Below, in pieces: positions 540 to 61,221 of a DNA stretch of 64,000 nt. The stretch spans positions 310,001-374,000 of the forward strand of contig NZ_WUMK01000007.1 in the NCBI RefSeq assembly GCF_009827055.1, given 5' to 3'. Numbering within the stretch: the first letter of the stretch is position 1; the number at the start of each line of letters is the position of its first letter. A model generated the notes under the pieces. That model had not been told where the DNA came from, ran no database searches, and was given only the letters and a program-made list of their open reading frames with translations. The position numbers and the translations under genes are program-made. This DNA is from Shinella kummerowiae (lineage in GTDB: Bacteria; Pseudomonadota; Alphaproteobacteria; Rhizobiales; Rhizobiaceae).

Positions 540-551
540 GTCCGGTTTCCT

Positions 552-581
552 CTCAAAAAAAACCGCGCTTGTGGCGCGGTT
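552..581 (-). terminator. Rho-independent terminator of the MmgR sRNA
   Basis: Inverted repeat AACCGCGC/GCGCGGTT (561-568 and 574-581) with a 5-nt loop. On the minus strand it is followed by an uninterrupted run of eight T (555-562). Confidence 0.85.
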
Positions 582-634
582 CAAGTCTAGGGAGGAAACA
601 CCCAAGGAGGGTATTTACAGCCACGAGTGACTGT
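555..634 (-). ncRNA. mmgR: MmgR/suhB-type (alpha-r8) trans-acting sRNA
   Basis: About 80-nt minus-strand transcript inferred from promoter plus terminator. The predicted 5' end (634) opens with a hairpin, ACAGUCA pairing with UGGCUGU around a CUCG loop (617-634). Next come two anti-Shine-Dalgarno tracts, CCCTCC and TTCCTCCC (588-612), then a GC-rich hairpin (561-581) followed by eight T. Known: the Rfam suhB RNA, renamed MmgR, lies in Sinorhizobium between a hisN/suhB-type phosphatase gene and a formylglutamate amidohydrolase gene; it is an Hfq-binding sRNA tied to nitrogen status and polyhydroxybutyrate granules. The same flanking genes occur here. Family assignment relies on synteny and remembered structure. 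Confidence 0.8.
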
Positions 635-52448: not shown

Positions 52449-52967
52449 TCAGTTGTTGCCGAAGGCGGTCTGCAGCAGGTTGAGCTGGGCCTGGACGCTG
52501 TTCTGGTTGCCCGGTTCGAAGGTCTGGACTTCCTGGGGGCGGTAGATTTCGCGGTCGAGCAGGGCGATGCGGTTCTGCAGGCGCAGCGAACGTTCGATCA
52601 GGTCGCGAAAGGCTTCCGGCAGGTCGTTCCAGCCGGGCGCGGTCTTGTCGACGTTGAAGCTGTCGAGGCGGACCTTGTTCTTTTCCGACAGCACCTGGTC
52701 GCGGCTCATCTCGCCATTGTTGACGGCGCGCTGGAGCAGCAGCCAGGAGGCCATCTGCATCAGGCGGGTGGTGAGGCGCATTGATTCTGCTGCGTAAAGC
52801 ACCGATGCCATGCGGGGCAGGACCTTCGAGGCCTGGCGGCCGACGCCATCGAGATAGCTCGCGGTCTCTTCGACTAGACCCATGCCTTCGGCGTACAGGG
52901 ATTTGAATTGCGCTGACGACGCAACATGGCCAGCGAAGCTGACGGTATTCAATCCTCTTTCGGACAT
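52449..52967 (-). CDS. rcdA: RcdA, regulator of CtrA degradation (DUF1465)
   Basis: 172-residue helical protein of the DUF1465/RcdA family: VSFAGHVASSAQFKSLYAEGMGLVEETASYLDG, LPRMASVLYAAESMRLTTRLMQMASWLLLQRAVNNGEMS and the conserved DLIERSLRLQNRIALLDREIY. Known: in Caulobacter RcdA is an adaptor that, with CpdR and PopA, delivers the cell-cycle regulator CtrA to ClpXP. ATG 52967 is favoured; ATG 52994 is a 9-residue longer option. A perfect CtrA recognition site lies about 120 bp upstream, implying feedback control. Confidence 0.9.
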   Translation of the reverse strand: MSERGLNTVSFAGHVASSAQFKSLYAEGMGLVEETASYLDGVGRQASKVLPRMASVLYAAESMRLTTRLMQMASWLLLQRAVNNGEMSRDQVLSEKNKVRLDSFNVDKTAPGWNDLPEAFRDLIERSLRLQNRIALLDREIYRPQEVQTFEPGNQNSVQAQLNLLQTAFGNN

Positions 52968-53087
52968 GGTGTCATCCCTGTTGAAACGCATCACAATGCA
53001 GGTAACGGAAGGTTGGGGCTTCGTGTTCCGAGCCGCCTTTTAATGTCTCAAGGATGATCCCATAACCTAATTCGCGCAAGGGCATTC

Positions 53088-53102
53088 TTAATAAAGGGTT
53101 AA
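53088..53102 (-). promoter_or_regulatory. Exact CtrA box upstream of rcdA
   Basis: TTAA (53088-53091), seven bases, TTAA (53099-53102), a perfect match to the CtrA consensus TTAA-N7-TTAA. Read on the minus strand, the downstream half-site overlaps a -35-like TTAAGA, with GGTTAT about 17-18 bp further as a possible -10. Distance to the rcdA start is about 120 bp. Confidence 0.7.
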
Positions 53103-53150
53103 TCTCCACAATTCTTTCGGCACAGGTGCCCGCGGGATTGACCTGCAGAC

Positions 53151-53177
53151 AAAAAAAGAGCCGCGGGAAGCGGCTCT
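53151..53177 (-). terminator. Rho-independent terminator upstream of rcdA
   Basis: Stem AGAGCCGC/GCGGCTCT with a 5-nt loop, followed on the minus strand by seven T. It sits 170 bp after the DUF1192 stop and just before the rcdA promoter region, so it ends either a long DUF1192 transcript or a separate small RNA. Confidence 0.85.
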
Positions 53178-53273
53178 CAAGGTAAAACAGGGAGAAAATC
53201 AGACCGATTCCCCGAGGGGCGAAAATGTCTGAATCCGGAAGGACCGGATGGGGCAAGTAATAACGTATAAGGC

Positions 53274-53288
53274 TTAATGGCCGGTTAA
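53274..53288 (-). promoter_or_regulatory. Second exact CtrA box
   Basis: TTAA (53274-53277), seven bases, TTAA (53285-53288), again perfect. It lies between the DUF1192 stop (53352) and the terminator at 53151. No annotated coding sequence starts downstream of it on either strand within this gap, so it may drive a short RNA. GANTC methylation sites (GATTC, GAATC) occur nearby at about 53206-53235. Confidence 0.65.
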
Positions 53289-53351
53289 CTCTATTGTCGG
53301 TTTGCCGGTTGCTGTGCTTTTTCGGCAAGGCCGCGTCGACTTTACATGCCT

Positions 53352-53543
53352 TTAGCGGAAGAGATTTTCTGCCGCCGACCGGCTTGCGCCCTTCCTTGCC
53401 TTCTCTGCCTCCAGGCGGTCGATTTCCGTGCGAAGCAGGTCGATTCGCGCCGCCAGTTCATCGGCCGAGAGCAACGACAGGTCGCTGCCGATCTCGTGTG
53501 CGGCCTTTTTCAACGGGCGTCCGTCTTCGTCGAAGAGGTTCAT
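53352..53543 (-). CDS. DUF1192 family small protein
   Basis: 63-residue protein, MNLFDEDGRPLKKAAHEIG followed by SLLSADELAARIDLLRTEIDRLEAEKARK, the DUF1192 signature with a short coiled coil. Function unknown. Its ATG overlaps the stop of the MFS gene in an ATGA arrangement, showing translational coupling. Conserved in Rhizobiales. Confidence 0.88.
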   Translation of the reverse strand: MNLFDEDGRPLKKAAHEIGSDLSLLSADELAARIDLLRTEIDRLEAEKARKGASRSAAENLFR

Positions 53544-54817
53544 GCGGTTTTCTCCTCCGATTGTTCGTCGGCGGCCTGCGGCTGGGCGAGCGCGCGCGGC
53601 GAGAGTTGAAGGCTTTCCGGCGTCATCATCGTGCCGGGGTTGATGGTCGTGTAGGCGTCGCGCATCTCGGCCGGCAGGGCGGCGCGGCGGCGGCTGCGGA
53701 AGATGGCGTAGGCGGTGATCAGGATATGCGCCGAGCAGGTCACCATGAAGAGCGCATAGGGGCCGACCGCCGACATGATCGGGCCGCCGAGCGTCGGGCC
53801 GATGATCGTGCCGACGCCGTAAAGCAGCAGCAGGCCGCCGGAGACCTTTACGAAATCCTCGGGGCTGGCGAAGTCATTGGCGTGCGACACGGCGATCGGA
53901 TAGAGCGCGTTGGCCATCGCGCCATAGAGCGCCGTCAAGACCAGCAGCACGGTGACGGAGGCGGGCTGGAAAACGAAGAGCGAGAGGCCGGCGCCGGCGG
54001 CAATGGCCGAGAGGGCGGCGAGCACGATGCGCCGGTCGATCCGGTCGGACATCCGCCCGGCCGGCAATTGCATGACCGCACCGGCGAAGATCGCCACGCT
54101 CATCATGATGGCGATCGTGCTGGAGGACAGGCCGGCATTGGCGCCGAAGACGGCACCCAGCGTACCGAAGGCGCCGTTGGCGATACCGATCAGCACGATG
54201 CCGACGCAGGCGACGGGGGAGGTGCGGAAGAGGGCCGGAATATCGAGCCGCACCTGTTTCAGCGGCTGCGGCGAGGCGGCGGTCGAGAGCGTCGTCGGCA
54301 GCATGGCGAAGCAGTAGAGAATGCCGGCGAACATGAAGAGCATCGGCGTCGTCACGTCGCCGAGCGCCACCGTCATCTGGCCGCCGACGGTGCCGACCAG
54401 CGTGATGGCGATGTAGAGCGAGAAGATCAGGCCGCGGCTCTCATTGGTGGCGCGCTCGTTCAGCCAGCTTTCGATGATCATCGAGGTGCCGGCAATTGAA
54501 AAGCCGGTGACGGCGCGCAGCACGATCCACCAGAACGGATCGACCAGCATGCCGGTCAACAGCGCGATGATGGCGATCAGCGAGGCGAAGCCGGAGAAGG
54601 CGCGCACATGGCCAATGCGCTTGACGATGGTGGGTGCCATCAGGCAGCCGAGCACGAAGCCCGACGCCCACGACGTGCCGAGCAGGCCGAGCATCGTCGT
54701 CTCATAGCCTTCGAAAGCGCCACGCATGGGCAGCAGCAGGCCGTGCAGGCCGTTCCCCAGGAAGAGGAACAGGGTGCCCATGAGAAGCGCGAAGACGGAA
54801 ATGAGATTGTTACGCAT
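53540..54817 (-). CDS. MFS transporter (YcaD-like)
   Basis: 425-residue membrane protein with 12 predicted transmembrane helices, starting MRNNLISVFALLMGTLFLFL. Seen: SWASGFVLGCLMAPTIVKRIGHVRAFSG (the A-motif-like loop 2-3 region), ESWLNERATNESRG after helix 5, and QLPAGRMSDRIDRRIVLAALS in loop 8-9. These, notably E-S-W-L-N-E, are typical of YcaD-type MFS permeases. The hydrophilic tail is Gln/Ala/Glu-rich. Substrate unknown. ATG 54817 is preferred over a 58-residue extension lacking hydrophobic content. Confidence 0.88.
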   Translation of the reverse strand: MRNNLISVFALLMGTLFLFLGNGLHGLLLPMRGAFEGYETTMLGLLGTSWASGFVLGCLMAPTIVKRIGHVRAFSGFASLIAIIALLTGMLVDPFWWIVLRAVTGFSIAGTSMIIESWLNERATNESRGLIFSLYIAITLVGTVGGQMTVALGDVTTPMLFMFAGILYCFAMLPTTLSTAASPQPLKQVRLDIPALFRTSPVACVGIVLIGIANGAFGTLGAVFGANAGLSSSTIAIMMSVAIFAGAVMQLPAGRMSDRIDRRIVLAALSAIAAGAGLSLFVFQPASVTVLLVLTALYGAMANALYPIAVSHANDFASPEDFVKVSGGLLLLYGVGTIIGPTLGGPIMSAVGPYALFMVTCSAHILITAYAIFRSRRRAALPAEMRDAYTTINPGTMMTPESLQLSPRALAQPQAADEQSEEKTA

Positions 54818-60967: not shown

Positions 60968-61120
60968 ATGCGGTCTGCGCCTCTCGACAGGAACCACAAT
61001 CCCTGGGGCCATACTCGATCCAAAGGGAGCTGTCCCTGACCAGGCCCGTGGGCTTGGACATATGGCGCCCACCTACGTTTGTAGGCACCCAGGATCGTAA
61101 ACCTCCATCGGTTGCGTGGA
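60968..61120 (+). ncRNA. ssrS: 6S RNA
   Basis: About 150-nt structured RNA directly after zapA. The ends pair (ATGCGG near 60968 with TTGCGT at 61112-61117). Internal features match 6S: a 5' bubble flank reading AATCCCTGGGGCCATACTCG (compare the CCCCTGAGCCGATA of E. coli), and the apical arm CTGACCAGGCCCGTGGGC opposite GGCGCCCACC. TATAT just upstream is a possible -10, and CTTTTCCCTTTTT follows the 3' end. Known: 6S binds sigma-70 RNA polymerase holoenzyme as a promoter mimic. Ends are approximate. Confidence 0.78.
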
Positions 61121-61221
61121 TCGTACTTTTCCCTTTTTGCTCTTCCATATCGAAATCGCACCGGCCTCGTCGTTCCTGAGGGTGGCGGCGATCGTATAGT
61201 TTCGGCTCGTTGGGAGACAAA

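Follow-up and report, generated by a model that had tools for sequence, protein, structure and literature searches.

The small RNA Sm84, also catalogued as SmelC671, is a 100-nt transcript of S. meliloti (2986421-2986520, plus strand) that lies between the same-strand genes SMc03988 and SMc03989 and has been detected by Northern blotting (∼80 nt), microarray and RNA-seq (PMC2873474, PMC2573895). Its Northern signal was raised by phosphate starvation (PMC2573895), and sm84 was assigned a sigma-70-like promoter and induction in phosphate starvation (Valverde 2008, PMC2573895). A review table enters SmelC671 with expression in nodule zone II, and that entry gives no promoter motif. According to PMC3927594, RNAs of the SmelC671 family carry CUCCCUGU in an extended unpaired region ahead of the terminator. 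A second catalogued RNA, BjrC1505, is represented in Rfam by the model RF02356; our search for literature on RF02356 found nothing.

CtrA, a master regulator of the cell cycle, has been connected with a small RNA and with the protease adaptor gene rcdA in separate studies. In Caulobacter crescentus, CcnA is a cell-cycle non-coding RNA that is putatively activated by CtrA (PMC8959179). The full CtrA motif in Caulobacter lies near −35 where CtrA is an activator (e.g. −39 at ctrA P2) and at −14 where it is a repressor (PMC4287350). A CtrA motif search of 2013 covered the regions upstream of protein-coding genes (PMC3616915). ChIP-seq in S. meliloti placed CtrA sites in the rcdA promoter region, the box being unspecified, and rcdA was unchanged on CtrA depletion (Pini 2015, PMC4433202).

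Here we analysed a 64,000-nt stretch of the Shinella kummerowiae genome (the window) in which a sequence-only reading had noted two CtrA boxes around rcdA, one of them possibly driving a hidden small RNA. The RNA is in fact already known, since it corresponds by synteny, motif and length to Sm84/SmelC671, which has been detected in S. meliloti, and it resembles Rfam BjrC1505. What is newly recognised, from sequence comparison, is a deeply conserved putative CtrA-box promoter on this known RNA. A literature search returned no mention of a link between CtrA and the SmelC671/BjrC1505 RNA. CtrA is absent from PMC3927594, PMC2873474 and PMC2573895, and in the review PMC7143759, which names CtrA 12 times, the mentions inspected concern cell-cycle background, the small RNAs EcpR1 and GspR, or references.

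The rcdA upstream gap and its two CtrA boxes

In the window, rcdA (52449-52967, minus strand; NCBIfam NF051867, 212 bits; Pfam DUF1465) follows a gene for a DUF1192 protein on the same strand (53352-53543; Pfam PF06698, 71.8 bits). Both exact TTAA-N7-TTAA sites previously noted between these genes were found in place: TTAACCCTTTATTAA at 53088-53102, upstream of rcdA, and TTAACCGGCCATTAA at 53274-53288, upstream of the small RNA (both minus strand). The 64 kb contain no other exact match, two compares with an expectation of 0.02, and none of 100 shuffles contained two. Genome-wide, the pattern was matched 39 times in 6.34 Mb against 35 times for a reversed control pattern, so TTAA-N7-TTAA is by itself non-diagnostic; the pair of sites within a single gap is, however, unusual. 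CtrA is encoded in the genome, with 85% identity to a hand-typed Caulobacter query. Its gene lies at 412743-413348 of the window's contig, ∼39 kb beyond the window end.

Extent and predicted fold of the small RNA

The predicted fold of the minus-strand RNA 53252-53150 comprises two hairpins, an unpaired CU-rich segment and a terminator; its free energy of −39.1 kcal/mol (z = −4.9) was equalled by none of 200 shuffles. The 5′ hairpin, SL1, occupies 53233-53249 and the second, SL2 (UCAGAC...GUCUGA), 53199-53232. The following 28-nt core UUUCUCCCUGUUUUACCUUGAGAGCCGC (53170-53197) includes the anti-Shine-Dalgarno-like CUCCCUGU, and its 3′ end lies within the stem of the intrinsic terminator (53151-53178; stem 53178-53156, T-run to 53151). 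Scans for terminators have a background, in that a mean of 1.3 terminator-like sites was found per shuffle of the 701 bases. The stem, T-run and fold support the earlier proposal of a separate minus-strand unit (∼53250-53151) with a terminator and internal hairpins. Its size had been put at ∼90 nt; because the S. meliloti counterpart is 100 nt, we instead favour ∼100 nt (53151-53250), with the 5′ end predicted at 53249-53250. In S. meliloti 4H41, counting 100 nt back from the end of the U-run leads exactly to the start of the first hairpin.

The open core is a common property of these RNAs, as 15 or more of the 19 bases UUCUCCCUGUUUUACCUUG were unpaired in the predicted folds of 70 out of 70 distinct RNAs. 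The 28-nt core was invariant in all 32 sequences of an alignment composed of the window and 31 sequences picked from those 70. RNAalifold applied to this alignment gave 18 pairs, none with both sides changed. SL1 was missing from that consensus, in our opinion because its arms were misaligned, and it was then counted arm by arm: pair 4 is G-C in 44, A-U in 17 and G-U in 9 of the 70 distinct RNAs, and the outermost pair is broken in 7.

Upstream of the predicted start, the candidate −10 element TATTAC (53257-53262, minus strand) is partly conserved, with its ATT (columns 27-29) kept in 80, 78 and 71 of 80 Rhizobiaceae loci and the final two positions in roughly half. A consensus scan of 52900-53600 found no sigma-70 promoter.

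Relationship to described small RNAs

Synteny, motif and length identify the window RNA as orthologous to Sm84/SmelC671 of S. meliloti (family RFMSmelC671; R. etli ReC71). Length, CUCCCUGU, terminator and gene order are alike, with no difference seen against the published descriptions, and in the modelled fold the motif lies in a long single-stranded stretch before the terminator hairpin, as in the SmelC671 family. The order and relative strands of three small RNAs also agree, these being 6S at 60969 (+), the RNA at 53250 (−) and mmgR at 548 (−) in the window, and 6S (SmelC667) at 2972090 (−), SmelC671 at 2986421 (+) and mmgR (SmelC689) at 3046712 (+) in the review table for S. meliloti. SMc03989 is presumably rcdA.

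BjrC1505 is related in that RF02356 aligns over its full length (1-140) and shares the rcdA locus, but the window copy scores 36.1 bits and was found at a relaxed Rfam threshold, below the 50-bit gathering cut-off. Thus, two catalogued RNAs, SmelC671 and BjrC1505, are tied to one locus. Model positions ∼5-22 of RF02356 resemble promoter DNA (the CtrA box) and not RNA; the BjrC1505 model may be partly promoter, and its 5′ boundary may need revision.

The mmgR/suhB family (RF00519) also has a CUCCCU motif followed by a terminator; the 3′ half of the window RNA scores 23.7 bits against it, missing the 41-bit cut-off. The window contains a stronger mmgR match at 548-619 (minus strand, 60.2 bits), and the 6S RNA (RF00013) lies at 60969-61126 (plus strand, 80.8 bits). 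EcpR1 and GspR of S. meliloti are trans-acting and touch cell-cycle genes, but lie between divK-pleD and rpmG and between SMc03844 and SMc03845, respectively, and PmaR lies on the A. tumefaciens circular chromosome, flanked by two hypothetical genes. All three were ruled out as the identity of the RNA by these other loci. CcnA differs in being encoded at the replication origin and in acting on ctrA and gcrA through a CCCC loop (PMC8959179); the ctrA leader held no consistent site for the window RNA in the 8 genomes searched.

Conservation of the RNA and its linkage to rcdA

Conservation of the gap across Rhizobiaceae had been named by the sequence-only reading as its own check, and was borne out for both boxes and the terminator. 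In a set of 80 Rhizobiaceae loci, out of 544 related stretches, the core-plus-terminator signature was found 5′ of rcdA in all 80. Order-wide, RF02356 matched 245 of 297 genomes, 211 of them above the cut-off, and 0 of 14 controls. A draw across the class gave matches in 20 of 190 genomes (9 above the cut-off), the window's genome and a second genome from the order being among these 20.

A 118-aa frame (53328-52972) is open in the window, but among 80 relatives only 2 have a frame uninterrupted between the start of the RNA and rcdA, and 23 have one that continues through the RNA and 60 bases more. We therefore rejected a hidden protein, to which we attach a negligible probability.

At 30 of the 30 top-scoring loci the RNA is followed on the same strand by rcdA, and so it is at 38 of 40 further order loci, which were hand-picked among the matches listed to cover families and include three of the 30, giving 65 of 67 distinct order loci. 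Such constancy would be expected if the RNA were a terminated leader of rcdA, an attenuator where most of a long transcript started by CtrA at the distal promoter halts at the terminator and read-through feeds rcdA; multiple start sites as well as a putative CtrA site have been reported for agrobacterial rcdA (PMC10469942). Against this, the distance from RNA to rcdA is variable (an estimated 120-471 nt), the Rhizobiaceae have a separate rcdA-proximal CtrA box, three box-bearing BjrC1505-like copies (L204, L205 and L207) have no rcdA detected alongside, and a plain attenuator is not expected to have a strongly conserved single-stranded core. We consider the attenuator improbable.

On the other side of the RNA, the hairpins could be just the 3′ end and terminator of an MFS-DUF1192 transcript, the box being incidental. 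DUF1192 is upstream on the same strand and was found so in 21 of the 30 and 25 of the 40 order loci by a 63-aa query, which possibly missed some. It was, however, not detected in the remaining 9 and 15, the distance from the DUF1192 stop to rcdA spans 345-961 bp in 30 loci, box and core are conserved far beyond what a terminator needs, and Sm84 has been seen as a discrete RNA (PMC2573895). This explanation is very improbable, and a discrete small RNA remains our preferred reading.

Conservation of the CtrA box of the small RNA

The box search was anchored on the core, with the best-scoring box taken within the expected place; because of this anchoring, the scoring does not depend on the Rfam model. 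Among the 80 Rhizobiaceae loci, all 8 half-site bases were matched in 53, 7 in 19 and 6 in 8, so that at least 7/8 was reached in 72, compared with 2 of 240 equally wide control windows. Exact boxes lay at −91 to −96 from CTCCCT. By base, the second half-site was kept in 75-80 loci and the first in 61, 70, 79 and 80, figures which best-score placement favours, whilst the spacer was variable in columns 5-9. The distal half-site was down to 2 of its 4 bases in 8 loci.

The box extends well beyond the family. Of the 40 order loci, 39 reached at least 7/8, spanning 30 of 31 families, a level attained by 3 of 200 control windows; for one of the loci, L171, the site scored was not the aligned site, an aligned exact box lying outside the scanned interval. 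Among the top-scoring loci that carry the core, three of them shared with the 40, the figure was 29 of 29 against 0 of 145 controls, L136 having been dropped for lack of the core string though it has an exact box. The first, distal half-site read TTTA in 19 of these 29 (18 of the f35/f41 kind, and others), with 20 in all at 7/8; in the scored loci of families f35 and f41 it was TTTA. In the class search, at least 7/8 was reached in 9 of 9 scored loci (8 beyond the order, 1 inside) against 1 of 45 controls; these derive from 10 of 21 matches listed, L208 having been dropped because the core string was absent, and two pairs share a family. The three loci beyond the order without detected rcdA kept a CtrA-like box. 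At a fourth locus, L211, rcdA was likewise not detected, but the locus is short.

With the 5′ end predicted from S. meliloti, the 5′ base of the window box falls at about −38, inside the range near −35 to −39 of a CtrA-activated promoter, and the site is retained at this position in relatives beyond chance. Relative to the 100-nt RNA of S. meliloti 4H41, the 5′ base of the box is likewise at −38. The position and its conservation thus support the earlier suggestion that the small RNA may have a CtrA-box promoter of its own.

The sequence-only reading had further proposed that nearby GANTC sites let CcrM methylation tie this promoter to replication. The two sites, at 53206-53210 and 53231-53235, are both inside the RNA body, the next lie at 52783 and 53442, and GANTC occurs in the RNA promoter of only 4 of 80 relatives. 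A CcrM-controlled promoter, which would need GANTC within the promoter, is unsupported and was rejected. GANTC is strongly depleted across the window (1-64000), with 72 sites against 338 expected.

The rcdA-proximal box and the proposed CtrA control of rcdA

The box nearest rcdA has a narrower distribution. All of the 80 Rhizobiaceae loci have it in exact form; in 38 order-wide gaps 7/8 was reached in 5 (2 exact), where shuffles predict 1.8, and in 30 top-locus gaps in 6 (0 exact), a count without shuffle control. Since the RNA's box is kept order-wide and in the loci scored beyond, and the rcdA-proximal box is seldom exact outside Rhizobiaceae, we take the ancestral CtrA site of the gap to be that of the RNA. 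The earlier emphasis on the rcdA box is therefore inverted, although its observation of both boxes stands.

The suggestion that one box serves an rcdA promoter, placing the adaptor gene under CtrA, holds in so far as the box is conserved before rcdA in Rhizobiaceae, but sits poorly with the lack of response of S. meliloti rcdA to CtrA depletion in the published data. CtrA binding in the rcdA promoter region without a response of rcdA points to the small RNA as the gene in this gap that would answer to CtrA. The focus should thus move from rcdA feedback to a putatively CtrA-controlled small RNA. Such control could explain why S. meliloti rcdA is unaffected even though CtrA binds upstream of it, and suggests that CtrA may act partly through a small RNA encoded ahead of rcdA.

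Proposed mechanism and possible targets

On these comparisons, the small RNA is most likely a CtrA-activated, trans-acting, anti-Shine-Dalgarno RNA. Quite probably, it represents in Shinella an ancient alphaproteobacterial RNA of the BjrC1505 kind that CtrA activates via the box and that pairs with ribosome-binding sites in trans. Phosphorylated CtrA would bind the TTAA-N7-TTAA box, standing in for a −35 element, and so activate transcription of the RNA; under such activation the RNA is expected while CtrA is active, that is, in late, predivisional cells. The transcript would stop at the intrinsic terminator and leave the single-stranded CUCCCUGU core exposed between hairpins, an exposure which suggests pairing in trans with ribosome-binding sites, probably those of several mRNAs, whose translation would be lowered. 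In Rhizobiaceae, a second CtrA box stands before rcdA itself. The sequence, predicted fold, conservation, placement of the box and rcdA linkage come from the present comparisons, and the RNA itself and CtrA binding near rcdA in S. meliloti are known from the literature; we infer the activation by CtrA, its timing, the trans action and the targets. An uncharacterised but widely conserved small RNA thereby gains a predicted regulator, and CtrA control of a small RNA becomes testable. More tentatively, and with less than even confidence, the RNA could provide the CtrA regulon with its general means of post-transcriptional control in Rhizobiales and some other Alphaproteobacteria, a counterpart of CcnA in function, with the rcdA ChIP peak of S. 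meliloti being wholly or mainly the RNA promoter.

The nearest candidate target is rcdA. If the UCCCUG core repressed rcdA at its ribosome-binding site, CtrA would be shielding itself from proteolysis. When pairing with the rcdA start region was ranked against local genes in the 80 Rhizobiaceae loci, rcdA came first in 20 and among the top three in 50, with a mean fractional rank of 0.19, though the loci are related and the control gene starts were crudely picked. Beyond Rhizobiaceae, the rcdA leaders inspected were mostly without the complement while the core persisted, which makes repression of rcdA unlikely as the ancestral role. We regard this reading as unlikely overall, and the rcdA leader as a possibility for a target in Rhizobiaceae only.

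For the preferred trans-acting RNA, targets were sought as exact complements judged by eye, which is not a systematic target prediction. Perfect complements AAACAGGGAGA in 7 Rhizobiaceae genomes, with frames checked by eye, revealed no recurring gene except the RNA itself, and the same held for AACAGGGAGGC, which was sought in 7 genomes from other families and matched in 6 of them. In the window's genome, the sole AAACAGGGAGA outside the small RNA is at position 1232 of L186 (minus strand), just 5′ of the ATG that begins an open frame of 149 aa.
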